Assembly (NCBI RefSeq): GCF_016865425.1
Contig: NZ_AP023355.1
Location: forward strand, 6,508,198 to 6,572,197
Reading direction: 5' to 3'
Length of the DNA stretch: 64,000 nt
Origin: Actinocatenispora thailandica
GTDB taxonomy: Bacteria > Actinomycetota > Actinomycetes > Mycobacteriales > Micromonosporaceae
Below the pieces are notes generated by a model. The model had not been told where the DNA came from and did not search any database. It was given only the letters and a program-made list of their open reading frames with translations. This document shows, one piece after another, positions 11,725 through 40,204 of the stretch (its first letter is position 1; each line of letters begins with the position of its first letter). Both the position numbers and the translations under genes were made by a program.

Positions 11725-11751
11725 GATGTATTCATAAAAAAAGACTTAACC

Positions 11752-11757: not shown

Positions 11758-11764
11758 GGCGGGC

Positions 11765-12532: not shown

Positions 12533-13242
12533 ACGAGTACCCGGGCCGCGGGCTGCACGGCCAGACCGTCGAGCTGCTCGCGCACCGCATCCTGTCCGGC
12601 CGGCTCGCCGAGGGCGCCACGCTCGACATCCCGGCGCTGGAGGCCGAACTCGACGTGTCCCGTACCGCGCTGCGCGAGGCGCTGAAGGTGCTGTCCGCCA
12701 AGGGACTGGTCGGCGCGCGGCAGAAGCGCGGCACGTTCGTCCGGCCGCGGCAGGCCTGGAACCTGCTCGACGGTGACGTGATGCGCTGGCAGTTCGCCGC
12801 GCCCGCGCCGACCTGGACGCGGTTCCTCGGCGACCTGGCCGAGGTGCGTACCCTGCTGGAGCCGCCGGCCGCCCGGCTCGCCGCGACCCGGCGCACCGAC
12901 GCCGACCTGGCCGAACTCGACGCGGCGCTGTCCGAGATGGACGGTGCCACGGACGCCGACGCCGCGGTCGCCGCCGACCTGCGGTTCCACCGGGCCCTGC
13001 TGGCCTGCACGCACAACGAGCTGCTCGGCCGGCTGGAGGTCGTGGTGGAACGCGCCCTCGCCGAGCGGGACCGGCTGGTACACGGCGGATCCGCGCCCGA
13101 CCCGGTCCCCACCCACCGGCCGGTACTCGACGCGATCCGGGCCGGCGACCCGGACGGCGCCGAGACGGCGATGTACGACCTGCTCGCCGCGGCCAACCAG
13201 CACGCCGCGGCGCTGACCCCGGACCGAGCGGAGCGCGGATGA
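12529..13242 (+). CDS. FadR/GntR-family regulator (FCD domain), DgoR-like position
   Basis: 237 residues. An N-terminal winged helix (LDVSRTALREALKVLSAKGLVGARQKRGTFV) is followed by an all-helical FCD effector domain with the metal-site Asp/His of DLRFHRALLACTHNELL and further His residues at the C-terminus. GTG 12529 overlaps the SDR stop, and its own stop overlaps the dgoD start. E. coli DgoR, which controls galactonate use, belongs to the same family, so a galactonate-responsive repressor acting at the 11710-11723 repeat is likely, though inferred. Confidence 0.88.
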   Translation: MNEYPGRGLHGQTVELLAHRILSGRLAEGATLDIPALEAELDVSRTALREALKVLSAKGLVGARQKRGTFVRPRQAWNLLDGDVMRWQFAAPAPTWTRFLGDLAEVRTLLEPPAARLAATRRTDADLAELDAALSEMDGATDADAAVAADLRFHRALLACTHNELLGRLEVVVERALAERDRLVHGGSAPDPVPTHRPVLDAIRAGDPDGAETAMYDLLAAANQHAAALTPDRAERG

Positions 13243-25602: not shown

Positions 25603-25607
25603 CGCGC

Positions 25608-26504
25608 TCACCTCGCCGCGAGCTTCGGGTCGTACCGGTCCCGCAGCGCGTCGCCGAGCACTCCGAACGCGACGACCAGTACGGCCAGCGCGATGCCGGG
25701 GATGGTGGAGATCCACCAGGCGGTGCTGAGCAGGTCCCGCCCGCTGGCGATGGTGGTGCCCCAGCTGGGCGTGGTGGCGGGGGTGCCGAGACCGAGGAAC
25801 GACAGCGACGCCTCGGCGAGGATCACGTCGCCGATGTGCAGCGCGGCGATCACCAGGAACGGGGCCCGGCAGGACGGCAGCACGCAGGTACGCACCAGGT
25901 GCCAGGTGCGGGCGCCGAGCACCCGGGTGGCGTCGACGTACTCGCGGTGCCTGGTGGCGAGCGTCTGGCCGCGGGTGACCCGGGCGAACGTGACCCAGCC
26001 GGAGATGGACAGCACCACGATGACGTTGCCGACGCTCGGGCCGAGTACCGCGGCGATCAGGATCGCGAGCAGGATGCCGGGGAACGCGAGCTGGATGTCG
26101 GCCAGCCGCATCAGGATCGAGTCGGGCCAGCCGCCGAACCAGCCGGCGAGGATCCCGAACACCAGCCCGATCAGCCCGGACAGCAGCAGCGCCGAGATGC
26201 CGATGGTCATCGACACCCGGGCACCCTGCATCATCTTGGCGAGCAGGTCCTGGCCGATCTGGTCGGTACCGAACAGCACCAGGTGGCCCTCGCTGGTGTG
26301 CGACATCGGTGCCAGCAGCCGGTTCCTGGTGTCGACGGCGACCGGGTCGAACCGGAACAGGATCGGCCCGAACGCCGCGCACAGCGCGTAGAAGGCGACC
26401 ACCGCGAGCGATCCGGCGATCCGTACCGTGCCGGTACGGCCCCGGCGGCGGACCGGCGGCGCGGCCGTCTCGATGGTGTCCGCGACCGCGGACGTGGTGG
26501 TCAT
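25608..26504 (-). CDS. Dipeptide-type ABC permease (DppC)
   Basis: 298 residues with about six membrane spans. FGTDQIGQDLLAKMMQGARVSM is the conserved DppC periplasmic segment, and EYVDATRVLGARTWHLVRTCVLPSC is the ATPase-docking EAA loop. ASLSFLGLGTPATTPSWG is also typical. It overlaps the DppB gene by ATGA. Confidence 0.92.
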   Translation of the reverse strand: MTTTSAVADTIETAAPPVRRRGRTGTVRIAGSLAVVAFYALCAAFGPILFRFDPVAVDTRNRLLAPMSHTSEGHLVLFGTDQIGQDLLAKMMQGARVSMTIGISALLLSGLIGLVFGILAGWFGGWPDSILMRLADIQLAFPGILLAILIAAVLGPSVGNVIVVLSISGWVTFARVTRGQTLATRHREYVDATRVLGARTWHLVRTCVLPSCRAPFLVIAALHIGDVILAEASLSFLGLGTPATTPSWGTTIASGRDLLSTAWWISTIPGIALAVLVVAFGVLGDALRDRYDPKLAAR

Positions 26505-27433
26505 CGCGACACGCTCCCTACCGACACGCGGGGGTCGATCAGCCCGTACAGCAGGTCGACGAGCAGGTTGACGACGACGAAGAGGGCGGCGATCAGGATG
26601 ACGCCGGCCTGCACCACGTTGTAGTCGCGGTACCCGATGGAGTCGGCGATCAGCCGACCGGCGCCGGGCCAGGCGAACACCGTCTCGATCACCACGGTGC
26701 CGCCGAGCACGCTGCCCAGGTACAGGCCGATGACGGTGACGACGGGGATCAGCGCGTTGCGGATGGCGTGCGGGAAGACGACCACCCGTTCGGACAACCC
26801 CTTGGCGCGCACCGTGTTCAGGTACGACTCGTGGCTGATCTCCAGCAGCCCGGACCGGGTGAGCCGGGTGACCATGGCGAGGAAGCCGAGGCCGAGCGTG
26901 ATGGCCGGCAGGATGATGTTCTGCCAGGAGTGCGCGCCCTCGCTGGGCAGCACCCGCAGCTGCCGGGCGAAGATCAGCAGCAGTACCAGCCCGGCCCAGA
27001 ACGTCGGGGTCGACTGGATGACCAGGGTGAACACCGAGATCAGCCGGTCCAGCCAGGAGTTCGGCCGGGACGCCGCGGCGACGCCGAGGCCGATCCCGAC
27101 GGTCACCGCGAACACCACGGCGGCAACGGCGAGTTCGGCGGTGGCGGGCAGCCGCAGCAGGATCTGCCCCATCGCGTCGCCGCCGAGCCGGATCGAGTCA
27201 CCGAAGTGCAGCCGCGCCACGTCTGCCAGGTAGTGCCCGTACTGCACGAGCAGCGGCTGGTCCAGTCCCATGCCGTGCCGCAGCCGGGCGACGTCGGCCG
27301 GGCTGGCGTCGGGGCCGAGGATGACCAGCGCCGGGTCGCCCGGCACCACCCGCAGCACCACGAACACGATGGTGACCGCGCCCCACAGCACGAACAGCGA
27401 GTAGGCGAGGCGACGGATCAGGTAGCCGAGCAT
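26501..27433 (-). CDS. Dipeptide-type ABC permease (DppB)
   Basis: 310 residues with about six membrane spans. It begins MLGYLIRRLAYSLFVLWGAVTIVFVVLRVVPGDP, the standard DppB start, and contains SYLNTVRAKGLSERVVVFPHAIRNALIPVVT as EAA loop and VIETVFAWPGAGRLIADSI. Its ATG overlaps the IclR stop, so regulator and importer are one operon. Confidence 0.92.
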   Translation of the reverse strand: MLGYLIRRLAYSLFVLWGAVTIVFVVLRVVPGDPALVILGPDASPADVARLRHGMGLDQPLLVQYGHYLADVARLHFGDSIRLGGDAMGQILLRLPATAELAVAAVVFAVTVGIGLGVAAASRPNSWLDRLISVFTLVIQSTPTFWAGLVLLLIFARQLRVLPSEGAHSWQNIILPAITLGLGFLAMVTRLTRSGLLEISHESYLNTVRAKGLSERVVVFPHAIRNALIPVVTVIGLYLGSVLGGTVVIETVFAWPGAGRLIADSIGYRDYNVVQAGVILIAALFVVVNLLVDLLYGLIDPRVSVGSVSR

Positions 27434-28245
27434 CAGGCGCTCGCCCCGGACGGCGCGACCAGCCCGGCCGCCGGGGTGCGGGCGGGCCGCGGGCGGCCGG
27501 CCGGTGGGGTCCGGGTGGGCCGCGGGCGGCTCGCCGGCGTCGCCGCCGGTGCCGGCCCGACCGCCGGCGTCAGGCAGCCGGCGACCCGGCGGGCGCAGCC
27601 GACCGTGGCGACGCCGATGCGTTGCCGGGCGACGCGGTCCTGTTCGTCGACCGTCACCTCGACGGCGGCGATCGCGAGCCCGTCCGGCCCGAGTACGGGT
27701 GCCGCGACGGCCGCACCGACCGCGTAGCCGCGGGCCCGGATCCGGCCCAGCGACAGCAGCAGCCGGTACCCGTCGGTACCGTGCCGGGCGGCGCAGCGTT
27801 CGGCCTCCGCCCGGGGCCGGAACGCCAGGTAGGCGGCGCCGAGTTCGGTGCCGGTCAGCGAGGCGGTGCCGCGGGCCGGCGGGACCGCGCCGCCGCGCGC
27901 GTCGACCGACAGCGACCGGACCAGCCCGCCGTAGCGGGGCAGCGCGAACCCGACCGGCCGGTGTACGGCGCGGCCGAGCGCACCGAGCGCAGCCTGGATG
28001 TGCGGCCAGCGCGCGGTGGCCGGGGCCGGGCGGGCGGACTCGGCCAGCTCGTAGAGTCCGACGCCGACCGTGTAGCGGTTGTCGTCGACCCGCTGCACCA
28101 GGCCGTGCTCGAGGAACGCGCCGAGCATCCGGTGCACGGTGCTCTTGTGCAGGCCGGCGACGGCGGTCAGTTCGGTCAGGGTCATGGGTCGCCCGTGGCG
28201 ACCGAGCTCGCCCAGCAGCGCGAGCCCGCGAGACAACGACTGCAT
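27433..28245 (-). CDS. IclR-family regulator heading the dpp operon
   Basis: 270 residues. The N-terminal winged helix reads LTELTAVAGLHKSTVHRMLGAFLEHGLVQ, then a GAF-like effector domain follows (about residues 80-220). The C-terminal 45 residues are Pro/Arg/Ala-rich and probably disordered. ATG 28245 has GGAAGG upstream. It is first in the importer operon and adjoins the 26-bp palindrome at 28304-28329, so autoregulation together with control of both divergent arms is likely. Confidence 0.85.
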   Translation of the reverse strand: MQSLSRGLALLGELGRHGRPMTLTELTAVAGLHKSTVHRMLGAFLEHGLVQRVDDNRYTVGVGLYELAESARPAPATARWPHIQAALGALGRAVHRPVGFALPRYGGLVRSLSVDARGGAVPPARGTASLTGTELGAAYLAFRPRAEAERCAARHGTDGYRLLLSLGRIRARGYAVGAAVAAPVLGPDGLAIAAVEVTVDEQDRVARQRIGVATVGCARRVAGCLTPAVGPAPAATPASRPRPTRTPPAGRPRPARTPAAGLVAPSGASA

Positions 28246-28303
28246 CTTCGGTGCCTTCCGTCCGGGGGTGACGGGTGGTGCGAGCCGATCGACAACCGTG
28301 TTT

Positions 28304-28329
28304 CGTGAACGTTACCGGTAACGTTCACG
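28304..28329. promoter_or_regulatory. Perfect 26-bp palindromic operator
   Basis: Arms CGTGAACGTTACC (28304-28316) and GGTAACGTTCACG (28317-28329) are exact reverse complements without a spacer. The site lies 59 bp upstream of the iclR start and 171 bp before the phosphatase gene, in a 254-bp divergent gap. Length and symmetry indicate a dimer- or tetramer-binding operator; IclR is the local candidate, though the ACCGGT centre would also suit a LacI-type protein. Confidence 0.8.
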
Positions 28330-28499
28330 GTGGCAAGCTAGCCAGGCCCTCGGAGGCTGTCAAGGGGCCCGTTGCACATCCCGAAACGGGCTTGTTCTCG
28401 CTGGTACCGGCGGGGTCCGCTGGTCGGCGTCAGCGACCCCGAGCGGCCCGGCGGCATCCGCGGGACCGGTCGGATCCGGCCACCTGTCGAGGAGCGCGG

Positions 28500-29207
28500 A
28501 TGACCCGTTGGGCAGTGGACGACCCCGTCGACGGCGGCGACCGCCGGCTGCACCTCACCCTGGTACGCCACGGCGAGTCGCAGTGGAACCGGCAGCGGCG
28601 GGCCCAGGGGCAACGGGGCCCCGGCCTCACCGAGTACGGCCGGCGCCAGGCGGCCCGCACCGCGGCCCGGCTGGCCACGCTGCCGGCGCCGGACCTGGTC
28701 CTCGCCAGCGACCTGCCGCGGGTGGTCGAGACCGCGCGGCCCTACCCGGCCGAACCGGTACCCGAACCGCGGCTGCGGGAACTCGACAACGGGGCGTGGG
28801 CCGGCCTGCTGCTCACCGACGTCGAACGCGAGTGGGCCGGCGACATCGCCCGGATCCGCGCCGGGGAGGACATCCCGCGCGGCGGCGGCGAGCGATTCGC
28901 CGACCTGCGCCGGCGGAGCGCCGAGCTGCTCGCCGACCTGGCCCGGCAGGTACCGGCCGGGGCCGAGCGGCGGATCCTGGCGTTCACCCACGGCGGGCCG
29001 ATCCGCGCCCTCGTCGCCGAGGTGCTCGGGCTCGGACCGGACGGCCACCGGCTGCTCGCCGGCCCCGGCAACTGCTCGCTCACCGAGGTTCTGCTGTACG
29101 TCGCCGGCGGCGCGATCACCGCCGGCCGGCTCGTCCGGTACGGCACCGACGACCACCTGGCGCAGCTGCCCAGCCGCCACGCACCGGCCGAGGAGGCGGC
29201 GAGATGA
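28500..29207 (+). CDS. Histidine phosphatase family protein
   Basis: 235 residues. The catalytic histidine motif LVRHGESQWN lies near residue 24 and the second catalytic His is in FTHGGPIR. TEYGRRQAARTAARL and RELDNGAWAGLL, with its acid-base candidate, are as in phosphoglycerate-mutase-like phosphatases. It has no signal peptide, so it acts on cytoplasmic phosphomonoesters. ATG 28500 follows GAGGAGC. Its stop overlaps the next start (ATGA), linking it to an EEP-family hydrolase and a peptide-type binding protein. Confidence 0.9.
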   Translation: MTRWAVDDPVDGGDRRLHLTLVRHGESQWNRQRRAQGQRGPGLTEYGRRQAARTAARLATLPAPDLVLASDLPRVVETARPYPAEPVPEPRLRELDNGAWAGLLLTDVEREWAGDIARIRAGEDIPRGGGERFADLRRRSAELLADLARQVPAGAERRILAFTHGGPIRALVAEVLGLGPDGHRLLAGPGNCSLTEVLLYVAGGAITAGRLVRYGTDDHLAQLPSRHAPAEEAAR

Positions 29208-29992
29208 GCCACCCGGTGACGTTCACCGCGATGACCTACAACCTGTGGGGCGGGTGGCGGTTCGCCGAGCGCCGCGACCCGCTGACCGGGCTGCTCACCC
29301 GGCGCCGGCCCGACCTGCTCGCCACCCAGGAGCTGCATCCCGACTCGCGCGCCGCCGTGGACGCCGCGCTGACCGGCCACGACCGGGTACGCGACGAGTT
29401 CCCGGGCTGGGCGACCCGCAGCAACCTGTGGTGGCACCGGGAGCTGTTCACCGAGCTGGCGCACGGCGCGGCCGACGTCGGCATCTGGTCCGACGACGCC
29501 CGGCTGTTCTGGGTACGGCTGGGCTGCCCGGCGGCCGGCACCGAGCTGCTGTTCGCCACTGCGCACCTGACCTGGCCCGGACACCCGCGCGAGATCGCCG
29601 ACGACCGGAGCCCGCGGGTCGAGCAGGCCCGCGCGATCGTCGCCGAACTCGGCCGCCTCGCCGGCGACGCCGGGCGCGGCGAGGTGGCGGTGCTGTTCTG
29701 CGCCGACACCAACGACTACGCCCGCCCGCTGTGGACCTGCTACGACGCCGGCTACCGGGAGCCGTTCGGCGAGCTCGGCACGGTCGCGCCGGCAACCCAC
29801 CCGGTGTACCCGCTGCCGCTGGACAAGCCGCGGCAGTGGCCGGACACGTACGCCGCGGCGAAGACGATCGACTGGCAGTTCTTCCGCGGCCCGCTGCGCG
29901 CGGCCGGCGCCGAGGTCGTCGAGTACTTCTCCGGCGGCATCGCGCCGTCGGACCACCGACCCGTCCAGTGCACGTACCGCTTCACGAGCTGA
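29204..29992 (+). CDS. Endonuclease/exonuclease/phosphatase (EEP) family hydrolase
   Basis: 262 residues. The N-terminal TYNLWGG, the metal-site Glu in LLATQELHP, FATAHLTWPG (catalytic His), CADTNDY and the C-terminal SDHRPVQ are the ordered motifs of the DNase I-like fold. Members cleave phosphodiesters in lipids, nucleic acids or inositol phosphates. No signal peptide is seen. Coupling to a histidine phosphatase suggests stepwise diester then monoester cleavage of an imported compound. It ends 9 bp before the binding-protein start. Confidence 0.85.
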   Translation: MSHPVTFTAMTYNLWGGWRFAERRDPLTGLLTRRRPDLLATQELHPDSRAAVDAALTGHDRVRDEFPGWATRSNLWWHRELFTELAHGAADVGIWSDDARLFWVRLGCPAAGTELLFATAHLTWPGHPREIADDRSPRVEQARAIVAELGRLAGDAGRGEVAVLFCADTNDYARPLWTCYDAGYREPFGELGTVAPATHPVYPLPLDKPRQWPDTYAAAKTIDWQFFRGPLRAAGAEVVEYFSGGIAPSDHRPVQCTYRFTS

Positions 29993-30001
29993 GGAGAAAC
30001 G

Positions 30002-31512
30002 GTGAGACGACGCACGTCGATCAGCACCCTGGGGTACTCGCCCTCGCCGGTGTGCTCGCCACGACCGGTTGCGGGGCAACCGAATCGGCCCGGAACGCCG
30101 GCGGCAAGGGCCTGCGGGTCGCGCCGGCCACGTTCCCGGTGTCGCTGAACATCTACCAGTACCCGGCGGAGGCCGCGGTGCAGGGCCCGGTGCAGCACGT
30201 GCTGGAGACCCTGGTGGCGCGCTCCGGCAACGACTACCGGCCGCTGCTCGCCACCAAGTGGAGCCAGCCGGACGACCACACCTGGACGTTCACCCTCCGG
30301 TCCGGAGTGACGTTCTCCGACGGCAAAGCGCTGACCGCCGACGACGTCAAGGCGTCCGCGGACGCGCTGATCAAGGCGGGCAGTTCGCTGGCACCGCTGT
30401 GGGAGCCGGTGAAGTCGGTGACCGCGACGGACGCGCACACCGTCACGATCACCACCACCCAGCCGCTCGGTACGATGCTCGCCACCCTCAGCCTGCTACC
30501 GATCACCGAGGCCGGCAAGGCGACCAGCGAGTCGTACTGGAAGGAACCGATCGGCACCGGGCCGTACACGGTCGAGGAGTGGTCCCCGGACAAGCAGCTG
30601 GTGCTGTCCCGCAACGCGAAGTACTGGGGAGCCAAGCCGTCGATCCCGACCATCACCTACCTGAACATCCCGGAGGAGTCGGCCCGGATCACCGCGCTGT
30701 CCACCGGTGAGGCGGACGTGACGAACGGGATCGGCGCCGACTCGGTCGGCCAGGTCGAGAAGATGCCGGGCGTGCACTACGCCACCAGGCCGGGCTACAG
30801 CTACGAGTTCATCTGGTTCAACTCGTCCCGGAAACCGTTCACCGACAAGCGGGTCCGGCAGGCCCTGTGGTACGCGGTGGACGTCAAGCAGGTCGTCGGC
30901 GACCTGTACGGCAAGCAGGCGAAGCTCGCGCAGGCGCCGATCCCGCAGCCGGTGTTCGGCGCACCGCAGCTGTCGCCGTACCCGTACGACCCGGCGAAGG
31001 CGAAGAAGCTGCTGGCCGAGGCGGGCTACCCGCACGGGTTCGCCACCACGATCCAGTGGGCCAGCTCCGACGACACCAACCAGAACTCGCTCGGCCAGGC
31101 GTTCGTCTCGTACTGGGCGAAGATCGGGGTGAAGGTCAAGCCGCTGCCGAAGGAGCGGTCGGTCTGGCTGGACGATCTGAACAAGCTCAACTGGGACATG
31201 AACCTGCAGGGCAACACGGTGGCCACCGGCGACGCCGACTACACCCTGGGCCGGCTCTACACCTGCGACGCCAAGCGGATGGGCTACTGCAACCACCAGC
31301 TGGACACGGTGCTGGCGCGGGCGAAGGCGACGCTGGACCCGGCGGAGCGCACCGCGCTGTACAAGCAGGCCAGCCAGATCATCTGGGACGACGCGGTCGG
31401 CATCTTCCCGGCCGACTTCACCGTCGACCTGGCGTACCGGACGAACGTCACCGGGCTGAGCATCGACCCGGCCGGCCGGCAGTCGTTCGTCCACGCCAAG
31501 CTCGCCCACTGA
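30002..31512 (+). CDS. Peptide-type ABC substrate-binding lipoprotein, with frameshift in the signal peptide
   Basis: About 500 residues of family-5 (DppA/OppA) binding protein: PLLATKWSQPDDHTWTFTLRSGVTFSDGKALTADDV, YWGAKPSIPTITYLNIPEE and FTDKRVRQALWYAVD. GTG 30002 has GAGGAG just upstream and gives VRRRTSISTLG; the hydrophobic part and lipobox GVLALAGVLATTGCGA lie one frame away. The two parts join seamlessly if the G run 30031-30034 gains one G. So either a base is missing or the gene is a broken copy. It is the missing binding protein of the divergent dppBCDF set; the operon layout makes this assignment strong, the ligand unknown. Confidence 0.85.
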
Positions 31513-31516
31513 GAAT

Positions 31517-31573
31517 CGTTGCGCGGCAACGGATCTGTCGTTGCGACCGATGCAACCGCCGTTGCCGCGCAAC
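31517..31573. promoter_or_regulatory. Three GTTGC-GCAAC inverted repeats (LacI-type operator cluster)
   Basis: CGTTGC-GCG-GCAACG (31517-31531), GTTGC-N7-GCAAC (31540-31556) and GTTGC-CGC-GCAAC (31561-31573) follow one another within 57 bp, upstream of the operon that ends with a lacI gene. CG-centred half sites of this kind are typical of LacI-family operators. Confidence 0.65.
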
Positions 31574-31590
31574 GCCACCGCCACCTAGCG

Positions 31591-31624
31591 TCGAGGCACG
31601 CACGCCGTCGAGGCACGCACGCCG
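31591..31624. repeat. 17-bp tandem duplication in the leader of the LacI operon
   Basis: TCGAGGCACGCACGCCG occurs twice head to tail (31591-31607, 31608-31624), just before the GGAGGAAGG binding site of the next gene. Confidence 0.8.
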
Positions 31625-31642
31625 TCGGAGGAAGGACCAACG

Positions 31643-32605
31643 TTGTCACCACACCTGGGGAGCACCGGCGAACAGGTACGGCGGGGCATGCTCGCCGCCG
31701 ACCCCGCCCTGTCCCGGTTCGATCCGCTGCCACGGATCCTCACCTACGACAACTTCGACACCGGGACGAACGGCTGGACCGAGCTGATCGGCAACTACGA
31801 CGGCAACGGCGACCTGTCCACAGTAGACGATCACATGCGCGACTTCCGGCCGCCGCAGGTGTCCAACTGCACGTTCTTCGACACCGGCACGCACGGCGCG
31901 CTCACCGGCGACTACGCGCTCAAGCTCGCCACCCGGCCGTACGTCGGGCACACCGCGGTGGCGATCCGCCGGCTCACCATGGCACGCAAGGGCCTGGTGC
32001 AGCTGGAGACGCACTTCAGCTACAAGGCGGAGGCGACGCTCGGCACGGACGCCGGCAACAACTCGTTCGGCGGCGTCACCTGGGACGGAAACCTGCATCC
32101 CAGCGAGGCGCAGTTCGGCGCGTTCACCGTGGCGACCGACATCTGCGGCGACGGCGGGCTGCGCTACCACACGGTGATGCGCTACCGGAACACCACCGTG
32201 GACAACGAGCTCGACCAGCGCTGGGTGTACCCGGTGGTGCCCGAGCCGACACCGCGGGAACACCTGGAGGGCAAGGTGAAGCTCGCCTACGGCGACGACT
32301 TCACCGCACCCGACCCGGCCGACTGGCAGCCGGCCTCGGAGCCGATGGCGATGTGCTACAACGAGGTCCCCACCAAGGTCAACTGGCACTACCTGCGCTG
32401 GCTGATCGACACCGACGCCCGGCGCAACGTCGAGCTGCAGGTCAACGACACCACCCTCGACCTGCGGGAAGTGCCGGTGCCGGCGTACTCCGACCGGTAC
32501 GACTCGCTGGAGAACCTGCTGAACTTCTACTTCAGCGTGCGGACCCACTCCGGTGTCCGGAACTTCCTCTATCTCGACTCCGTACTCGTTTCCGTGGATT
32601 GGTGA
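31643..32605 (+). CDS. Uncharacterised beta-rich protein (possibly DUF6772 family)
   Basis: 320 residues from TTG 31643, which follows a strong GGAGGAAGG; ATG 31688 is the alternative. Content is beta-strand-rich with many Trp, Tyr and Asn: YDNFDTGTNGWTELIGNYDGNG, GALTGDYALKLATRP, LVQLETHFSYKAEATLG and a C-terminal VRNFLYLDSVLVSVDW. The pattern suggests a carbohydrate-binding or lyase-like jelly roll with DNF-DTGTNGW as a concanavalin-like opening. There is no signal peptide or membrane segment. I think it belongs to DUF6772 but cannot verify that. It is first in an operon with a small beta protein and a LacI regulator. Confidence 0.75.
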   Translation: MSPHLGSTGEQVRRGMLAADPALSRFDPLPRILTYDNFDTGTNGWTELIGNYDGNGDLSTVDDHMRDFRPPQVSNCTFFDTGTHGALTGDYALKLATRPYVGHTAVAIRRLTMARKGLVQLETHFSYKAEATLGTDAGNNSFGGVTWDGNLHPSEAQFGAFTVATDICGDGGLRYHTVMRYRNTTVDNELDQRWVYPVVPEPTPREHLEGKVKLAYGDDFTAPDPADWQPASEPMAMCYNEVPTKVNWHYLRWLIDTDARRNVELQVNDTTLDLREVPVPAYSDRYDSLENLLNFYFSVRTHSGVRNFLYLDSVLVSVDW

Positions 32606-32612
32606 GGCGATC

Positions 32613-32978
32613 ATGCGTCATGCCCAGACCGCCGTGCTGGAACGCGGCGCCGAGTTCACCGGCGAGTTCGCCACCGAGCCGTACGAGGTGCCCTGGGCCG
32701 CCGAGGCCCGCTTCTTCGTGCAGGTGATCGACCCGGCGCCGGGCACCGTCACCCTGACCACCCAGCTGTCCCCGGACGGGTTGAACTGGATCGACGCCGA
32801 GCACCTGGCCGGGGTCGAACTGGACACGACCGGTGTCGGTATGGTGACCTGGCGGGTCCGCGAGTTCGGCGGCTGGCTCCGGCTGCGTGGCGCGGCCCGC
32901 CCCGCGGACGCCGACGGCGGTACCCACCCCACCGGCCGCGGCCCGCGACTGCGGATCCACCTCGTCGCCAAGGAGTAA
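32613..32978 (+). CDS. Small hypothetical beta-sandwich-like protein
   Basis: 121 residues from ATG 32613, preceded by GAGG. Alternating hydrophobic strands (ARFFVQVIDPAPGTVTLTTQLSPDGLNWIDAEHLAGVEL, then WRVREFGGWLRLRGAARP) look like a compact beta sandwich, similar in style to small subunit-like or carbohydrate-binding proteins. No known motif was recognised. It starts 7 bp after the preceding stop and ends 5 bp before lacI, so the three are co-transcribed and it may act with the 320-residue protein. Confidence 0.7.
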   Translation: MRHAQTAVLERGAEFTGEFATEPYEVPWAAEARFFVQVIDPAPGTVTLTTQLSPDGLNWIDAEHLAGVELDTTGVGMVTWRVREFGGWLRLRGAARPADADGGTHPTGRGPRLRIHLVAKE

Positions 32979-32983
32979 CCGAG

Positions 32984-34045
32984 ATGTCCGTGCACCGGCC
33001 GACCGGCACGATGCGGCGCCGGGTCCGGCTGTCCGACATCGCCGAGGCGGTCGGCTGCTCGGTCAACACCGTGTCCCGCGCGCTGACCGGCAAGGACAGC
33101 GTCAGCCCGGTGACCCGGGCGCAGGTGATGGCCGAGGCCGAGCGGCTCGGGTACGTGCCGAACAACCAGGCCCGCTCGCTGGTGCTCGGCTCCACCCGGA
33201 CCGTCGGTCTGGTCATCACCAACCCGTCCAACACGCTGTACGCCGGGTTGATCTCCAGCGTCGAGCTGCGCTGCCGGGCCCTCGGCTACACGGTGATGCT
33301 GCTCGCCACCGAGGAGAGCCCCGAGTCCGAGCGGGTCGCCGCCGAGTCGCTGCTGCACGCCGGCGTCGACTCGGCCCTCGCGGTACCGGTGCAGGCCGAG
33401 GCCGGGCACTGGGAGCGGCTCCGCCGCGCCGGCGTCGACCTGGTTTTCGTCAGCCGGGAACTGCCCGGGATGGACGTCGACTTCGTCGGCATCGACAACG
33501 AGCACGGCGCGTACCAGGCGACCGCGCACGTCCTGGACGCCGGCGCCCGGGTGGTCTGGGCCGTGGAGGAGGACCTGCCGATCAGCACGGTCCGGCAGCG
33601 GCGGGACGGCTACCTGCGCGCGATCGCCGACCACGCCGCCGATCCGGGCAGCGCCCGGGTGCTGTCCGTACCGACCCGGCGGCGCGACTCGCTGACCCTG
33701 CCGTGGCAGGCGGAGGAGGCGTACCGGCTGGCCGGCCGGCTGGTCGCCGACGGCGACCTGCCCGACGCGTTCGTCGCCGGCAACGACTACTTCGCGCTGG
33801 CGCTGATCCGGGCGCTCACCGAGCACGGGCTGCGGGTGCCGGACGACGTGCTGGTCGTCGGCTACGGCGACCACCCGTACGCGGGCTACCTCACCCCGAC
33901 CCTGTCCAGCGTCGCCCTGCCGGCCACCGAACTCGGCAGCACCGCGGTCGACGTGCTGATGCGCCGCACCGCCGAGCCGGAGGCACCGACCACCCGGCAC
34001 CTGATCGCCCCGCACCTGATCCCGCGCGAGTCCACCCGCCGCTGA
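32984..34045 (+). CDS. LacI-family transcriptional regulator
   Basis: 353 residues. The HTH and hinge are clear: LSDIAEAVGCSVNTVSRALTGKDSVSPVTRAQVMAEAERLGYVPNNQARSL. A periplasmic-binding-protein-like sensor follows, with VGLVITNPSNTLYAGL, FVGIDNEHGAYQATAHVLDAG and a C-terminal LTPTLSSVALPATELGSTAV. ATG 32984 has AAGGAG upstream. It is last in the operon downstream of three GTTGC/GCAAC operators, the usual autoregulated layout. The ligand is probably a sugar or sugar acid. Confidence 0.92.
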   Translation: MSVHRPTGTMRRRVRLSDIAEAVGCSVNTVSRALTGKDSVSPVTRAQVMAEAERLGYVPNNQARSLVLGSTRTVGLVITNPSNTLYAGLISSVELRCRALGYTVMLLATEESPESERVAAESLLHAGVDSALAVPVQAEAGHWERLRRAGVDLVFVSRELPGMDVDFVGIDNEHGAYQATAHVLDAGARVVWAVEEDLPISTVRQRRDGYLRAIADHAADPGSARVLSVPTRRRDSLTLPWQAEEAYRLAGRLVADGDLPDAFVAGNDYFALALIRALTEHGLRVPDDVLVVGYGDHPYAGYLTPTLSSVALPATELGSTAVDVLMRRTAEPEAPTTRHLIAPHLIPRESTRR

Positions 34046-34205: not shown

Positions 34206-34589
34206 TCACTCGTGGGCGACGAAGTCGATCTCGACCAGGATGTTGTTCAGCTCCGAGCCGACCGTGGTCCGCACCGGGGCCGGATCCGCGGTGAAGAACT
34301 CCCGGTACGCCTTGTCGAACTCGGCGAAGTCGCGGTGCAGCTCCTGCAGGTGCACCGTCGCCTTCACCACGTGCTCGAAGCCCAGGCCGCGCTGCGCGAG
34401 TACGGCGCCGAGGTTCTTCAGCACCTGCCGGGTCTGGGTGGCCACGTCGTCACCGACCGCCTTGCCGGTGGCCGGGTCGATCGGCCCCATGCCGGCGGTG
34501 TACACGAACCCGGCGACCGCCACGCCCTGCGAGTAACCGCCCGCCGGTGCCGGCGCCTGGTCCGTGCGCAGCCCCTGCTTGTCCGCCAT
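34206..34589 (-). CDS. RidA-family enamine/imine deaminase
   Basis: 127 residues, the normal size for the YjgF/YER057c/UK114 fold. GGYSQGVAVAGFVYTAGMGPIDPATG opens it, and the key Arg is in APVRTTVG, followed by LVEIDFVAHE. RidA proteins hydrolyse reactive enamines and imines made by PLP dehydratases. It is the last gene of an operon that contains a PLP-dependent D-amino-acid dehydratase, which matches that role closely. ATG 34589 follows GGAG. Confidence 0.92.
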   Translation of the reverse strand: MADKQGLRTDQAPAPAGGYSQGVAVAGFVYTAGMGPIDPATGKAVGDDVATQTRQVLKNLGAVLAQRGLGFEHVVKATVHLQELHRDFAEFDKAYREFFTADPAPVRTTVGSELNNILVEIDFVAHE

Positions 34590-34633
34590 GATGTGCTCCG
34601 TTTCGTGTCGCGGATGGATGTCAGCGATGGATG

Positions 34634-35641
34634 TCAGCGTTGCACGTCGTCGTCGGAGTCCGCGCCGAGCAGGTTCAGCTCGGCCCGGCTCGGCAGGCCC
34701 TCCCAGTCACCGGGCACCGTCACCGCGAACGCGCCGGCCACGGTCGCCGCGTGCAGGCAGGCGTCCGGTGCTGCACCGCCGATCCACTCGGTCAGGTAGG
34801 CGGACGCGAACGCGTCGCCCGCACCGACCGGGTCGACCGCCCGCACCGGCTTGGCCGGCAGGTCGTACCCGGTGCCGTCGAGCAGGCCGACGACACCCCG
34901 GGAGCCGCGCTTGACCAGCACCTGCCGCGGCCCGAGCTTGGCCAACTCGGCGGCGAGGACCGTCTCGTCGCCGCCGGACACCACCAGCCTCGCCTCCGGG
35001 CCGGTCGCGAACACCAGATCCGCCCGGGTCACCAGCTCGCGCAGCGTGGCGCCGGCCGTGGCCGCGTCCCAGAGCGCGGCCCGGTAGTTGAGATCCAGCG
35101 ACACCGCGACGCCCGCGGCGCGAGCGACCTCCACCGCCGCGAGTACCGCCTCGCGCGCGGTTCCGGACAGTGCCGGGGTGATGCCCGTGACGTGCAGCAC
35201 CCGGGCCGCCCGGACCACCGACTCGTCCACATCGGACGGTGACAGCCGGGACGCCGCGCTGCCGGCCCGGTAGTACTGCACCCGGGTCGCGGTGTCGGTG
35301 CGGCGCTCCTTGACCATCAGGCCGGTCGGCGCGGTGCCGTCGACCGCCGCGTACACCGCGACGCCCTCGGCCCGGATCGTCGCGGTGACCAGCCGGCCGA
35401 ACTCGTCGTCGCCGACCCGGCTCAACCAGGCGGCCCGCCGGCCCAGCCGGGCGACGCCGATCGCCAGGTTCGACTCCGCGCCGGCCACCGACAGGTGCAG
35501 GCTGTGCATGTGCCGCAGCAGGCCGACCCGGGGCGCGGCCAGCAGCGCCATCGTCTCGCCCAGCGTCACCAGCTCCGCCGCACCGGCACCCGGCCCACCG
35601 ATCGGGCCGGGCAGGTCGGTGGCGTACTCCGGGGTACTCAC
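34634..35641 (-). CDS. 2-keto-3-deoxygluconate kinase (PfkB family)
   Basis: 335 residues. The two PfkB signatures are GAESNLAIGVARLG and DPVGAGDAFASAYL, the latter with the catalytic Asp. LVTLGETMALLAAPRVGLLRHMHSLHLSVAG is characteristic of KDG kinases. It phosphorylates 2-keto-3-deoxygluconate to KDPG, the substrate of the aldolase encoded 46 bp upstream. GTG 35641 lacks an obvious binding site; a GTG near residue 24 (LVTLGE) preceded by GGAG is possible. It could also act on 2-keto-3-deoxygalactonate. Confidence 0.86.
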   Translation of the reverse strand: MSTPEYATDLPGPIGGPGAGAAELVTLGETMALLAAPRVGLLRHMHSLHLSVAGAESNLAIGVARLGRRAAWLSRVGDDEFGRLVTATIRAEGVAVYAAVDGTAPTGLMVKERRTDTATRVQYYRAGSAASRLSPSDVDESVVRAARVLHVTGITPALSGTAREAVLAAVEVARAAGVAVSLDLNYRAALWDAATAGATLRELVTRADLVFATGPEARLVVSGGDETVLAAELAKLGPRQVLVKRGSRGVVGLLDGTGYDLPAKPVRAVDPVGAGDAFASAYLTEWIGGAAPDACLHAATVAGAFAVTVPGDWEGLPSRAELNLLGADSDDDVQR

Positions 35642-35687
35642 GCGAACACCCGGGCGGCGGAAACGCCCGGCGCCGTCGACGATCCGG

Positions 35688-36341
35688 TCACCCGCGCGCC
35701 TCCCGGATCGCGTCGAGCACCGCGCGGGCCCGGGCGCCCAGCTCGGTCAGCGACCCACCGTCCAGCGCATCGCCCAGCAGCGGCCCGCCCATGCCGACCG
35801 CGATCGCGCCGGCGGCAAGGTACTCCGGCACCAGGTCGAGGGTGACCCCGCCGGTGGGCATCAGCGGTACCCCGTCGATCGGCCCGCGCAGCTCCCGGAG
35901 GTAGCGGGGGCCGGCCACGGACGCCGGGAACACCTTGACCGCGGTCGCGCCGAGCCGCCAGGCGGTCAGCACCTCGGTGGCGGTGAACGCACCCGGGTAG
36001 TAGCCGAGCCCGCGGGCCACCGCCTCGGCGGCCAGCGCCGGATCGGTGTGCGGGGAGACGATGAACGTGGCGCCGGCCTGCTCGGCGGCGTCGAGGTGCT
36101 CGACCGTCAGCACGGTGCCGATGCCGAGATCCACCTCGGCGCCGTACCGGGCGCGGGCGGCGGCCACCGCGGCGAACCCGTCCGGCGTGTTCGTGGTGAT
36201 CTCCAGGCAGCGGATGCCGTTGTCCACCAGCGCATCGATCACCGCGGGCAGGTACTCGCCGGTGCGCTTGCCGCGCAGGATCGGGACCACGCCGGTCTCG
36301 ACCAGCGCGGCGCTCGGCGTACTGCGGGGTGAGGTTTGCAT
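35688..36341 (-). CDS. KDPG/KHG aldolase (2-dehydro-3-deoxyphosphogluconate aldolase)
   Basis: 217 residues, a class I aldolase. The Schiff-base lysine is Lys136 in TAVKVFPAS, the catalytic Glu is Glu47 in RCLEITTNT, and VPILRGKRTGEYLPAVIDAL and LMPTGGVTLD bind phosphate. It splits KDPG to pyruvate and glyceraldehyde 3-phosphate, or the galacto epimer if tolerant. ATG 36341 follows GAGG. It lies 9 bp after the PLP enzyme gene in the six-gene operon. Confidence 0.9.
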   Translation of the reverse strand: MQTSPRSTPSAALVETGVVPILRGKRTGEYLPAVIDALVDNGIRCLEITTNTPDGFAAVAAARARYGAEVDLGIGTVLTVEHLDAAEQAGATFIVSPHTDPALAAEAVARGLGYYPGAFTATEVLTAWRLGATAVKVFPASVAGPRYLRELRGPIDGVPLMPTGGVTLDLVPEYLAAGAIAVGMGGPLLGDALDGGSLTELGARARAVLDAIREARG

Positions 36342-36350
36342 GTCGTTCCT

Positions 36351-37601
36351 CTAGAAATAGGTGTGGATCAGGTCGACGACCCGGTGGTCGGCGTCGACCA
36401 TCGGGATCACCCGCCACTTGTCGAACGCGGTACAGGGGTGCGAGATACCGAACGCGATCAGGTCACCGGGGCGCGGCGTCGGGCCTCCGGAGGTGTCCAG
36501 GTAGGCATGCTGGTCGTTGAAGCGCCGCACGGTGAACCCCGCCGCCGGTTCGGTGCCGCCGTCGGCGCGCCGCAGCGTCTTCGGCACCGGCAGCCCCTCG
36601 TCGTACGGGGCATCCCGCTTGCCCATCGCGACCAGCGCCAGGCCGGGCTCCGGGGTGGAGGTCACCTGCGCCCACACGGTCAGCGCCGGGATCAGCGAGC
36701 CCTCGGCACCGATCCGGTTGAACGGCGTCTTGGCCCGGTAGAACCCGTCGTCGTGGGTGACGTACGAGCCGGACCGCAGCAGTACCAGCAGTTCCCGCCT
36801 GGCCAACCAGTCACCGGAGAGCACTTCGGTGACCGTGTCGAAGTAGGCCGAGCCGCCGGCGGAGACCACCACCGGGCCGGGCCGCACCAGGTCGAAGGCG
36901 ACCAGCGCCTCGGCCGCCTCGCGCAGCGTACCGAGGAAACCCCGCGCTTCGTCCACAGTGGACAGACCGCCCTCGTACCCGGAGACGCCGGCCACCGCGA
37001 GCCGGGGCACCTCCGCGGCCGCCCGCGCGAGAGACACCACGTCGGCGACCGAACGCACCCCGGTACGGCCGTGCGCGTGGCCCAGCTCGACGACCACCTC
37101 CAGCGGCCGGTCGCCGGTCACCTCCGCCAACGCCGCCCGGATCGCGTCGAGCCCGTCGGTCGAATCCAGGTAGAACAGCAGCTCGAACGACGGATCGCGC
37201 TCCCGTTCGGCGATCACCCAGCGCAGCGCCAGCGGGTCGAGCAGCTCGTTGGCCAGGAAGATCCGCGGCACCCCGAAGCCCCGCGCGGTGAGCACCTGGC
37301 TCGCCGCCGCCAGGGTGATCCCCCAGGCACCCGCATCCAACTGCTGCTGGAACAGCACCGGTGCCATCGTGGTCTTGCCGTGCGGCGCGAACGCCAGGCC
37401 GTGCCGGGCGGTGTAGTCGGCCATGGTGGCCACGTTGTGCGCCACCGCATCCCGGTCCAGCACCAGCAGCGGCCAGCTGAACGGCCCGGTGAAGATGTCG
37501 TACCCGGCGGCGACGAACTCCGCCGCCGGCAGCCGCGCCCCCGGCAGCCACAGCCCCTTGGTACGCCAGTCGACGTGTTCGGTGGGAATCCTCAGTGCCA
37601 C
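36351..37601 (-). CDS. PLP-dependent D-amino-acid dehydratase (D-serine dehydratase-like fold)
   Basis: 416 residues. The alanine-racemase-like N-terminal barrel carries the PLP lysine, Lys76, in FAPHGKTTMAP. The C-terminal D-serine-dehydratase domain has the metal motif HxC (HPC, about residues 388-390, in ISHPCTAFDKW). In this fold HxC is found in D-serine dehydratases and HxD in D-threonine aldolases, which favours dehydration/deamination. GTG 37601 follows AGGAGG. With a D-acyl deacylase upstream and KDG kinase plus KDPG aldolase downstream, D-glucosaminate to 2-keto-3-deoxygluconate plus ammonia is the best inferred reaction. Confidence 0.86.
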   Translation of the reverse strand: MALRIPTEHVDWRTKGLWLPGARLPAAEFVAAGYDIFTGPFSWPLLVLDRDAVAHNVATMADYTARHGLAFAPHGKTTMAPVLFQQQLDAGAWGITLAAASQVLTARGFGVPRIFLANELLDPLALRWVIAERERDPSFELLFYLDSTDGLDAIRAALAEVTGDRPLEVVVELGHAHGRTGVRSVADVVSLARAAAEVPRLAVAGVSGYEGGLSTVDEARGFLGTLREAAEALVAFDLVRPGPVVVSAGGSAYFDTVTEVLSGDWLARRELLVLLRSGSYVTHDDGFYRAKTPFNRIGAEGSLIPALTVWAQVTSTPEPGLALVAMGKRDAPYDEGLPVPKTLRRADGGTEPAAGFTVRRFNDQHAYLDTSGGPTPRPGDLIAFGISHPCTAFDKWRVIPMVDADHRVVDLIHTYF

Positions 37602-37612
37602 GCGGCCTCCTG

Positions 37613-38389
37613 TCAACGCGAACCCAGCTCCCGGGAGATCTGGCGGGCGGCACCAGCGACCTCCGGAGCCAGCCGGCGCACCTGGGCCGGCGTCATCCGG
37701 GACGCGACGCCGGACACCGACACCGCACCCACCACCCGGTCCTCGTGGTCGAACAGCGGCGCGGCGACGCACCGCACGTCCGGCTCGTTCTCCTGGTCGT
37801 CCACCGCGTAACCGCACTGCCGGATCCGGGCCAGCTCGCGGCGCAGCGCGGCCGGCTCGGTGATGGTGTACGCGGTGGTCGCGACGAGGCCGGCGTCGAG
37901 CACCGCGGCCAGCTGCGCCTCGCCGCCGAACGCGAGCATCGCCTTGCCGACGCCGGTGCGGTACAGCGGAACCCGGCGACCCACCCGGGAGGCCATCCGA
38001 ACGTTGGCCTCGCTCTCCACCTTGTCGATGTAGACCGCCTCCAGCCCGTCCGGCACGACCAGGTGGCAGGTCTGGCCGGAGGACCGCTGCAACGCCCGCA
38101 ACTGGGTCGCCGCCACGGTCCTGATGTCCAGCCGGGACAGGTACGCCTGGCCCAGTTGCAGGGCGCCGAGCCCGAGCCGGAACCGGCCGCTCGCGGCGTC
38201 CCGGGCCAGCAGCTCGGCGTCGACCAGCGGCTCGGCCAGCCGGAGCACCGTGCTCTTGTTGAGCGACAGGGCATCCGCGATCTCGGTCAGCGTCGCCCCG
38301 GCACCGCCGACCTCCCGCTCCACATAGGACAGTATGGTCAGCGCGCGGCGCAGCGAGGACGACTGGTTGCGGGCCGCCGTCTCGATCAT
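37613..38389 (-). CDS. IclR-family regulator of the deacylase-dehydratase operon
   Basis: 258 residues. The winged helix is LTEIADALSLNKSTVLRLAEPLVDAELL; the effector domain contains HLVVPDGLEAVYIDKVESEANVRMAS, VPLYRTGVGKAML and a C-terminal AVSVSGVASRMTP. That is the complete IclR layout. ATG 38389 overlaps the deacylase stop. It is embedded as the second gene of the operon; an imperfect palindrome at 40016-40032 upstream of the first gene is its likely site. Confidence 0.9.
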   Translation of the reverse strand: MIETAARNQSSSLRRALTILSYVEREVGGAGATLTEIADALSLNKSTVLRLAEPLVDAELLARDAASGRFRLGLGALQLGQAYLSRLDIRTVAATQLRALQRSSGQTCHLVVPDGLEAVYIDKVESEANVRMASRVGRRVPLYRTGVGKAMLAFGGEAQLAAVLDAGLVATTAYTITEPAALRRELARIRQCGYAVDDQENEPDVRCVAAPLFDHEDRVVGAVSVSGVASRMTPAQVRRLAPEVAGAARQISRELGSR

Positions 38390-39945
38390 CGCGGCGACCG
38401 CAACGGGACGCCGGCGAGCGCGCCGGTCAGCTCGCCGCCCGCCAGCACCGGTCGCCCGTTCACCAGCACGTCGTCCACCCCGACGGCCGGCCGGCGCGGA
38501 TCGTCGTAGGTCGCCGCATCGCGCACCCGGTCCGGATCGACCACCGCCAGGTCGGCGTGGTAGCCGACCCGCAGCTGGCCCCGGCCCGGGAACCCGAACC
38601 GGCGGGCCGGGTTCGCCGCCAGGTGCACCACCGCGTCCGGCCAGGACAGGTCGCCGAGTTCCCGCACGTGCCGGGCGAGCACCCGGGCGAACGCGCCCCA
38701 GCCGCGCGGGTGCGGATGCGATCCGACGTAGATCCCGTCCGAGCTGCCCATCTGGGCCGGGTGCCGGAGCAGCGCGCGCACCGACTCCTCGCTGTTGGTC
38801 GGCGGCTGACCGAACACGCAGCCGGCCCGCAGCTCGGTGGCCCGCAGCAGCTCCACGCAGGTCGCGGCAGGGCTCAGGCCGGCCTGGTCGGCCACCGCGA
38901 CCAGCGGCCGACCCTCGGCCCACCGCCACTGCTCGGACGGCACGTACGACAGGGTGATCCGCGGCCACACCTCGGCGCGGTGCGCGAACCACTCGGTGTC
39001 GAGCCGGCGCTGCACACCGGGATCGGCGAGCTGCTCGACGGCGCGTTCCACGTCGGCGGTGGGCAGCCACTCGGGCAGCGTCACCATCGCCAGGATGGTG
39101 CTGCCCCGCAGGTACGGGTAGCTGTCGAAGCTGAGGTCGATGCCCTCGGCGCGGACGTCGTCGACCAACCCGATCAGCTTCTCCGCCGGCCCGTGGTAGT
39201 GCGAGACGTGCGTCGCGACGCCACTGTCCCGGGCGATCTCGCGCACCTCGGCGATCCCGGTCGGCGCGTCCGCCTCGTACCCGCGCATGTGCGTCACGTA
39301 CGGCAGGCCGCGGGCGGCGACCGGGCGGCACAGCTCGGCCAGCTCGGCGGCGTTCGCGTACCGCCCCGGGCTGTACTCCAGGCCGGTGGACAGGCCGACC
39401 GCGCCCTCGTCCAGCGCGCGCTCCACCAGCCGGCGCATCCGGGTCAGTTCGGCCGCGTCGGCCGGCCGCTGCGCCGAGCCGAGCACCTCGTACCGGATCG
39501 TGCCGTGCGGTGCGAGGTAGGCGGTGTTCAGCGCGGTGCTGTCGGTGTAGCCGGCGAGCAGCGCGGCGACGCCGACCGGCCCGTCGCCCAGCCCGGCCGG
39601 CGGCCCGTTGACCGCGTCGAAGTAGCGCGCCACGTACCGCAGGGTGGCCGGCGAGGCGGGCGCGAACGACAGGCCGTCCTGGCCCAGCACGAACGTGGTG
39701 ATGCCCTGCCGCAGCGCGGCGAGTTGCACCGCCGGGTCACGCACCAGCGCGTCACCGTGCACGTGCGCGTCGATCAGCCCGGGCGTCACGTACCGCCCGG
39801 CGGCGTCGATGCTGTGCTCGGCCTCGGCGAGGTCGAGGTGGCCGAGTGCGGCGATCCGGTCGCCGGTGATGGCGACGTCCGCCCGGTACGCCGCCGCGCC
39901 GGTGCCGTCCAGCACCCATCCGCCGCGCACAATCACGTCGAACAC
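38386..39945 (-). CDS. N-acyl-D-amino-acid deacylase (D-aminoacylase family amidohydrolase)
   Basis: 519 residues. The barrel metal site begins DAHVHGD; THMRGYE and ATHVSHYHG supply further His ligands and SSDGIYVGSHPHPRGWG the catalytic Asp. Classical D-aminoacylases have GNCGIS where this protein has GQDGLS, so the bridging Cys is replaced by Asp. The family removes acyl groups from N-acyl-D-amino acids; N-acetyl-D-glucosaminate, a D-configured 2-amino acid, would fit the operon. GTG 39945 follows GGAGGTGGGG. It is the first gene of six. Confidence 0.87.
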   Translation of the reverse strand: MFDVIVRGGWVLDGTGAAAYRADVAITGDRIAALGHLDLAEAEHSIDAAGRYVTPGLIDAHVHGDALVRDPAVQLAALRQGITTFVLGQDGLSFAPASPATLRYVARYFDAVNGPPAGLGDGPVGVAALLAGYTDSTALNTAYLAPHGTIRYEVLGSAQRPADAAELTRMRRLVERALDEGAVGLSTGLEYSPGRYANAAELAELCRPVAARGLPYVTHMRGYEADAPTGIAEVREIARDSGVATHVSHYHGPAEKLIGLVDDVRAEGIDLSFDSYPYLRGSTILAMVTLPEWLPTADVERAVEQLADPGVQRRLDTEWFAHRAEVWPRITLSYVPSEQWRWAEGRPLVAVADQAGLSPAATCVELLRATELRAGCVFGQPPTNSEESVRALLRHPAQMGSSDGIYVGSHPHPRGWGAFARVLARHVRELGDLSWPDAVVHLAANPARRFGFPGRGQLRVGYHADLAVVDPDRVRDAATYDDPRRPAVGVDDVLVNGRPVLAGGELTGALAGVPLRSPR

Positions 39946-40015: not shown

Positions 40016-40032
40016 GTTTTGCATAGCAGAAC
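40016..40032. promoter_or_regulatory. Imperfect palindrome upstream of the deacylase operon
   Basis: GTTTTGC-ATA-GCAGAAC has 6 of 7 arm positions matching and lies about 70 bp before GTG 39945 in a rare AT-rich patch. It is a plausible IclR operator. Confidence 0.45.
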
Positions 40033-40050: not shown

Positions 40051-40170
40051 GCGCGAGCCAGGCACACGCGGCGCGAGGCAGGACCGCCCGAGGCGAGCCA
40101 GGCACACGCGGGGCGAGGCGGGACCGCCCGAGGCGAGCCAGGCACACGCGGGGCGAGGCGGGCCCGCGCG
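40051..40170. repeat. 40-bp tandem repeat, three copies
   Basis: Units at 40051-40090, 40091-40130 and 40131-40170 share GCGAGCCAGGCACACGCG; copies two and three differ only near the end. The array lies between the deacylase promoter and the next gene and carries no gene itself. Confidence 0.85.
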
Positions 40171-40204
40171 GGGCCGGGGCGGCGCGCCGGCCCACCGGAA
40201 CGGG

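Follow-up and report, generated by a model that had tools for sequence, protein, structure and literature searches.

A six-gene operon of Actinocatenispora thailandica predicted to act in the catabolism of N-acetyl-D-glucosaminate or a close stereoisomer

Genes of the operon

The DNA analysed (hereafter the window) is a stretch of 64,000 nt at positions 6508198–6572197 of the 7.43-Mb one-contig genome of Actinocatenispora thailandica, with a GC content of ~73%. Reading of the open reading frames gave a tightly packed operon of six minus-strand genes spanning 39945–34206, for which a role in amino-sugar acid catabolism is proposed below. The genes are listed in transcription order (PLP, pyridoxal 5'-phosphate; KDG, 2-keto-3-deoxygluconate; KDPG, its 6-phosphate; KHG, 2-keto-4-hydroxyglutarate), followed by an upstream palindrome.

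39945–38386, minus strand: deacylase (DAC), GTG start, 519 aa; Pfam Amidohydro_3, 3e-26
38389–37613, minus strand: IclR regulator, ATG start, 258 aa; Pfam IclR_C, 4.5e-56, and HTH_IclR
37601–36351, minus strand: PLP dehydratase, GTG start, 416 aa; Pfam D-ser_dehydrat, 1.8e-18, and Ala_racemase_N
36341–35688, minus strand: KDPG/KHG (Eda-type) aldolase, ATG start, 217 aa; Pfam PF01081 Aldolase, 1.8e-36
35641–34634, minus strand: PfkB-family kinase, predicted KDG kinase, GTG start, 335 aa; Pfam PfkB, 6.5e-46
34589–34206, minus strand: RidA-family protein, ATG start, 127 aa; Pfam Ribonuc_L-PSP, 2.1e-30; recurrent in the cassette
40016–40032: candidate IclR operator, 17-bp palindrome GTTTTGCATAGCAGAAC, 70 bp upstream of the DAC start

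The start codons were our choice and are presumptive. The gaps were −4, 11, 9, 46 and 44 bp in operon order, the first being a 4-bp overlap of the IclR gene with the DAC stop. An earlier reading of the same letters (the original prediction) had named six genes in this order, with gaps of 46 bp or less and one overlap, and all of this was borne out; its family names also hold at the superfamily level by Pfam. Among the NCBIfam matches listed (for the deacylase, 25 of 55), none of the six proteins reached an equivalog cut-off, and only the aldolase scored above a subfamily cut-off. Gene names finer than the superfamily are therefore our predictions.

The dehydratase belongs to the D-serine dehydratase-like proteins of fold-type III by its PF14031 domain, Lys76 (in PHGKT) and an H-x-C motif (H388-P-C390). 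We take Lys76 to be the Schiff-base lysine and H-x-C to be the zinc motif. Both had been pointed out in the original prediction, and both were kept in all 46 aligned sequences, window included. The best PDB match was 3gwq (E 3.8e-79). The enzyme is predicted to be a glucosaminate dehydratase (deaminase).

The aldolase scored 167.3 bits against a cut-off of 156.05 on the subfamily model TIGR01182, which places it among the KDPG aldolases (Eda). The top NCBIfam model of the kinase was NF040938, for a kinase of KDG and 2-keto-3-deoxygalactonate (KDGal), at 212 bits and thus under the equivalog cut-off of 400; its first PDB match was the PfkB protein 4du5, followed by the KDG kinase 1v19 (E 9.7e-53). 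For the regulator, the best NCBIfam model was BhcR, with 199 bits under a cut-off of 350.

The cassette in other actinobacteria

DAC was searched for in 150 genomes from the carrier's family, of which 137 gave a match at E 0.001, many weak and partial. Besides the window genome, a window-type DAC was present in three genomes of the same genus (81–95% identity) and in three of other genera (59–61%). Gene order was read in twenty regions out of twenty genomes. The full six-gene order recurred in the same-genus genomes G070, G050 and G012 (loci L129–L131), with 68–96% identity gene by gene. Content and order were thus kept in four of four sampled genomes of the genus, window genome counted, and because the same order recurs in three further genomes, the set is not a chance one. 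In another genus (G021, L133), deacylase, IclR, dehydratase, aldolase and kinase genes follow each other with no RidA detected. Deacylase, aldolase and kinase stand together in G043 (L134), and deacylase and dehydratase in G027 (L132). The set therefore coheres in the genus and partly beyond it.

For wider relatives, 84,980 species genomes were scanned and the best 80 loci kept, plus plasmid records. These loci were searched by BLAST with the six window proteins, the GntP permease of Tsukamurella and the solute:sodium symporter (SSS), DgoK, DgoA and RpiR proteins of Klebsiella. Among the loci kept, the closest named relatives of DAC were from Nonomuraea and Planotetraspora. In these, a protein of ~400 aa follows deacylase, dehydratase and RidA (L002 15035–16225, L009 3794–5008). 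It had no Pfam match at 0.001, no PDB match and no counterpart in the window operon, and was matched in 37 of the 150 family genomes, mostly at ~30% identity.

A second arrangement has RidA, IclR and kinase genes divergent from dehydratase, deacylase and, in part, aldolase genes, with a gene for a GntP permease at either end. It was found in Tsukamurella, Nocardia, Mycolicibacterium, Lentzea, Actinomadura, Arthrobacter and Streptomyces. Eleven Streptomyces loci had it, nine of them with GntP; the other two end at contig ends.

In a tree of 81 deacylases, two mostly actinobacterial clades were distinguished, A (including the window) and B. The dehydratase tree splits into the same two groups, with L010 apart. 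Genes lying ≤9 kb from the deacylase were counted as neighbours:

Clade A (n=15): dehydratase 9, kinase 6, aldolase 6, RidA 7, IclR 5, GntP 0
Clade B (n=35): dehydratase 30, kinase 23, aldolase 8, RidA 22, IclR 21, GntP 18
Remaining deacylases (n=31): dehydratase 6, kinase 2, aldolase 1, RidA 6

As the sample was picked by deacylase similarity, these counts are not population frequencies, and some misses are due to short contigs or to genes too diverged for the E cut-off. A dehydratase together with a kinase or aldolase was seen in 5 of 15 loci of clade A, 22 of 35 of clade B and 2 of the remaining 31. In this last group, the two loci with a kinase are ong clusters, one from Vibrio and one from Pseudoalteromonas piscicida. 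Clade-A members such as L011 (Isosphaeraceae) had no other cassette genes. The deacylase match fell into two frames in L091 (Klebsiella CP125156, 8001–9357) and L004 (a Microbacterium plasmid, 11170–12728), through either sequencing error or decay.

GntP belongs to the gluconate permease family (PF02447, 1e-121 in L016), and the Tsukamurella protein is annotated as a gluconate:H+ symporter. Its gene stood beside the deacylase or aldolase gene in nine clade-B loci and at the other end in nine, all Streptomyces. The carrier genome has one GntP-family gene near 3.16 Mb, far from the operon.

Proposed pathway, deacylase pocket and alternative substrates

The ong pathway of Pseudoalteromonas prydzensis ACAM 620 was described with knockouts and mass spectrometry (Jiang et al. 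2022; PMC9537276). There, deamination by OngC was demonstrated and a RidA protein was required for growth (PMC9537276). The same text reports complete ong pathways from Gammaproteobacteria and one betaproteobacterium, found by screening for sets of four linked genes that share >30% identity with the ong genes of ACAM 620 (PMC9537276). At family level the window operon holds the same linked set, namely a D-aminoacylase-like deacetylase, a fold-type III PLP deaminase, RidA and KDG kinase, and the predicted intermediates are the same. The Vibrio, Klebsiella and Serratia versions also include a KDPG aldolase, and linkage to genes for hexosaminidases of glycoside hydrolase family 20 (GH20) is shared. 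The dehydratase and its P. piscicida OngC counterpart have the same best PDB match.

The two systems differ in regulator and transport. The window operon has IclR, while ong has a MurR/RpiR protein (OngR); GntP in clade B, or no transporter, stands in place of the ong SSS protein (OngIT) and TonB receptors. Neither the RpiR nor the SSS query from Klebsiella matched anything in the window, clade A or clade B. The window deacylase lies on a separate branch of the tree. In local alignments with Vibrio L089 and P. piscicida L090, identities were 35/34% for the dehydratase, 31/30% for the deacylase, 34% for the aldolase (L089 only), 28/27% for RidA and 23/23% for the kinase. Fewer than four window genes thus exceed 30% against either, the published threshold itself being set against ACAM 620.

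The operon probably serves the IclR-controlled catabolism of N-acetyl-D-glucosaminate (2-acetamido-2-deoxy-D-gluconate, GlcNAc1A) or a close stereoisomer. The amidohydrolase would take the acetyl group off GlcNAc1A, and the zinc/PLP dehydratase would remove the beta-hydroxyl and ammonia to give KDG. RidA perhaps hydrolyses an enamine or imine intermediate. Judged by family, the PfkB kinase would form KDPG, which the aldolase would cleave to pyruvate and glyceraldehyde 3-phosphate. Uptake in the sister clade B is probably through the GntP permease.

The PLP enzyme of the route through phosphorylated glucosaminate is presumably different from the window dehydratase. A system of that kind likewise turns glucosaminate carbon into a phosphorylated 2-keto-3-deoxy acid and ammonia, but its substrate is the phosphorylated acid (PMC9529869).

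GH20 genes were found near three of the clusters. In Cellulosimicrobium funkei (L010), the gene lies directly upstream of the deacylase on the same strand (PF00728, 4e-104); in L015, it is convergent with the aldolase gene, 28 bp past its end; and in L132, it lies at 2.9 kb on the opposite strand with unrelated genes in between. The three proteins are 50–54% identical. Beyond these three, two GH20 queries matched only the ong loci L089 and L090 and the haloarchaeal L092 (26%), six loci altogether. A rough, post hoc Poisson estimate, with GH20 genes set at three per 7.5 Mb and neighbourhoods at 16 kb, puts the chance probability of at least three matches among 40–60 loci at 0.002–0.007. Elsewhere, L034 has a ROK regulator and a sugar-type binding protein near the deacylase, and in L019 (1048–8357, from a metagenome-assembled genome of Microbacteriaceae), the deacylase stands beside a gene of the glucosamine-6-phosphate isomerase family. 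L019 also carries an enolase-superfamily gene, a small kinase (by eye a gluconokinase) and, likewise judged by eye, a LacI-like regulator.

The original prediction had proposed this same chemistry, from N-acetyl-glucosaminate through KDPG to pyruvate and glyceraldehyde 3-phosphate. That part is supported by the conserved gene content, by GntP in clade B and by the GH20 neighbours; the part that has weakened is the origin of the substrate from chitin ends, treated below.

We somewhat favour the broader view of a separate pathway for oxidised N-acetyl-amino-sugar acids that is widespread in actinobacteria and parallels the gammaproteobacterial ong. In it, a D-aminoacylase-fold branch with an Asp metal ligand would act as hexosaminate de-N-acetylase, wired to IclR and GntP. 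Such catabolism would be neither a marine gammaproteobacterial speciality nor dependent on an organism's own lytic polysaccharide monooxygenase (LPMO). No account of an actinobacterial cassette appeared among the matches listed in the open-licence PMC literature, so the earlier remark on how noteworthy an actinomycete version would be still holds. A haloarchaeal glucosaminate route is given as a prediction only (PMC12343721). If true, the actinobacterial route would fill a gap, as LPMO_10 is common in the family and catabolism of the acid is described only in Gammaproteobacteria and one betaproteobacterium. It would also be a natural test case for how a single fold may have arrived at one substrate on two occasions, the metal ligand and pocket differing between them.

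DAC is predicted to be an N-acetyl-hexosaminate de-N-acetylase of the D-aminoacylase/OngB fold. Its AlphaFold model (pLDDT 94.3, pTM 0.94) had as top Foldseek matches the D-aminoacylases BbDam (3gip) and AfDam (1m7j), with PpOngB (9kb3) fifth. D-aminoacylases and PpOngB fitted about equally well (TMq 0.79–0.82), the three structures named reaching 0.81–0.82. Alignment places the zinc ligands at D90, H219 and H249, the catalytic aspartate at D403, and further sites at H61/H63 and R414. With PpOngB (PDB 9kb1/9kb3; PMC12017989), residue numbers being read off the printed alignment, DAC shares the fold, the catalytic Asp (D368), the two zinc-site histidines (H222, H252), the HxH motif (H68, H70) and counterparts of Y194, Y285, S291 and R379. 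With AfDam and BbDam it shares the fold and 32–34% identity, but it has Asp for the zinc-ligand Cys, lacks the carboxylate-binding Lys and stands in another genomic setting.

OngB orthology of DAC was rejected on the deacylase tree, where DAC sits on another branch, and on the pocket residues. By its genomic setting DAC would work like OngB, but it falls outside the OngB family of Wang et al. 2025 (PMC12017989). The Cys/His/His plus catalytic Asp site of subtype V amidohydrolases is likewise replaced, by Asp90/His219/His249 with Asp403, and GQDG stands where that site has GNCG. GQDG was found in all 50 tree members of clades A and B, and in further branches such as L093 and L094, which adjoin diaminopropionate-lyase and YgeY genes. 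Because these branches carry it too, GQDG alone is no mark of hexosaminate function.

Several findings weigh against the proposed pathway. The OngB zinc ligand Cys97 is Asp90 in DAC, and the OngB specificity residues Glu226, Ser290 and Ser292 have become Tyr223, Gly281 and Thr283. In ungapped pairing, Lys254 becomes His251 and Gln298 pairs with Thr289, the latter in an indel-bearing loop where the pairing is uncertain. Gln298 is thus probably changed, and the Ser292 + Gln298 specificity pair of the OngB family is absent at its first position. Threonine at position 292 is the D-aminoacylase state, and S292T lowers kcat/Km of PpOngB to 1.3% (PMC12017989). In the literature covered, no member of the DAC branch has a demonstrated activity. 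On the genomic side, no transporter gene lies inside the six-gene operon, L134 has no dehydratase nearby, and 12 of the 39 dehydratase-positive loci of clades A and B, among them L002, L009, L010 and L132 of clade A, have no kinase or aldolase nearby; the other 27 have one or both.

The distribution of LPMOs belongs to the same side. LPMO_10 was present in 140 of the 150 family genomes and absent from 3 of the 7 genomes with a window-type DAC (defined here at ≥59% identity; G050, G027 and G043), versus 7 of the 143 others. The contrast is post hoc (Fisher p 0.0066) and its significance overstated, since kin genomes are included. In G027 and G043, the deacylase is also accompanied by an incomplete set of the operon genes. 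GH18 and GH20 matches were present in all seven. The carrier genome has a single LPMO_10 (AA10 with CBM5/12), 72 kb from the operon and outside the window. An operon-linked LPMO was rejected as a candidate: run with tblastn over the window and most of the loci fetched, the carrier LPMO had a single match, of 55 residues, in L080, a distant amidohydrolase locus. The original prediction had looked to synteny with LPMO or chitobiose oxidase genes, and no linked LPMO was found in the window or most fetched loci; chitobiose oxidase was not searched. C1-oxidised ends are formed by chitin-active LPMOs (PMC12017989). An oxidised chitin end as the substrate is therefore the weaker part of the earlier claim, given the distant LPMO, the three carriers with none and the lost OngB specificity residues. 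As some DAC carriers have no LPMO_10, the acid may often come from oxidation by other organisms or from another source.

It is unlikely, on balance, that the same logic applies with another hexosaminate or another acyl group, be it N-acetyl-D-galactosaminate or -mannosaminate (through KDGal and its 6-phosphate, KDPGal), a lactone, or an N-acyl variant, for instance an aldonate derived from muramate. The pocket residues unlike those of OngB would suit it, as would the bifunctional KDG/KDGal model that fits the kinase best and the annotation of KDGal kinase and KDPGal aldolase in the ong-type cluster of Klebsiella. On the KDPGal aldolase model, too, the aldolase reaches 148 bits, under the cut-off of 207, but it is nearer the KDPG aldolase 1wa3 (6e-33) than the KDPGal aldolase 2v81 (2.3e-26). 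The GH20 neighbours do not discriminate between GlcNAc and GalNAc.

Catabolism of N-acyl-D-amino acids of the D-Ser or D-Thr type, with a kinase and aldolase that belong to a different route and are merely co-located, seems distinctly improbable. Both the deacylase and dehydratase families are D-amino-acid enzymes, Thr283 is as in D-aminoacylases, and OngC acts on D-Ser and D-Thr too (PMC9537276). In L006 and the Pantoea loci L007 and L008, the dehydratase goes with RidA and ABC transporter genes (of amino-acid type in Pantoea) and no kinase or aldolase; amino-acid permease genes lie near L015 and L133, and the 12 loci counted above fit as well. Yet a kinase or aldolase is found alongside in two distinct clades of the deacylase and in several gene orders, and GntP and GH20 neighbours suit a sugar acid rather than amino acids. 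A broad salvage operon for both N-acyl-D-amino acids and N-acetyl-hexosaminates, to which the breadth of OngC (PMC9537276) and a DAC-branch pocket like neither OngB nor AfDam/BbDam might point, is very improbable, as none of the characterised OngB, AfDam and BbDam uses both substrate classes (PMC12017989).

Candidate operator and neighbouring genes

The palindrome at 40016–40032 is a candidate IclR operator. The pattern GTTYTGCNNNGCARAAC was found once in the genome, which is supportive but no proof because the pattern was composed from the site itself. The block was recognisable in L130, where it fell under the 6-of-7 arm threshold, in L131, and in L133 as ATTGTGCAATGCACAAT. It was absent upstream of the operon in L129 (G070), where a TnpB-like gene (OrfB_IS605, 10195–11301) lies directly upstream at the expected place of the palindrome. 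Among the palindromes listed for clade B the spacing differs, with GTTGCA-N5-TGCAAC in 7 of 20 promoter regions. Promoter and terminator scans found none, with shuffled means about as few (0.1 and 0.8). A 40-bp GC-rich unit stands in three tandem copies at 40053–40174, between the candidate operator and the next upstream gene.

Convergent to the operon, 29905–34045 holds genes for an SBP_5 binding protein, a DUF6772 protein, a small protein (114–141 aa depending on the start; no Pfam match) and a LacI regulator. This block also adjoins the operon in L129 and L131, and DUF6772 was present in only 12 of the 150 family genomes. The SBP_5, permease and ATPase genes at 23540–31512 were considered as an importer for the operon; this is possible, but they form units apart from it, with an IclR gene of their own and with LacI in between, and the candidate was set aside.

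Further off, 6385–14381 holds a GH42 beta-galactosidase, a sugar-binding protein and an enolase-superfamily gene, along with two permease-like genes, a short-chain dehydrogenase/reductase and a GntR-like gene judged by eye. It looks like a second sugar or sugar-acid locus.

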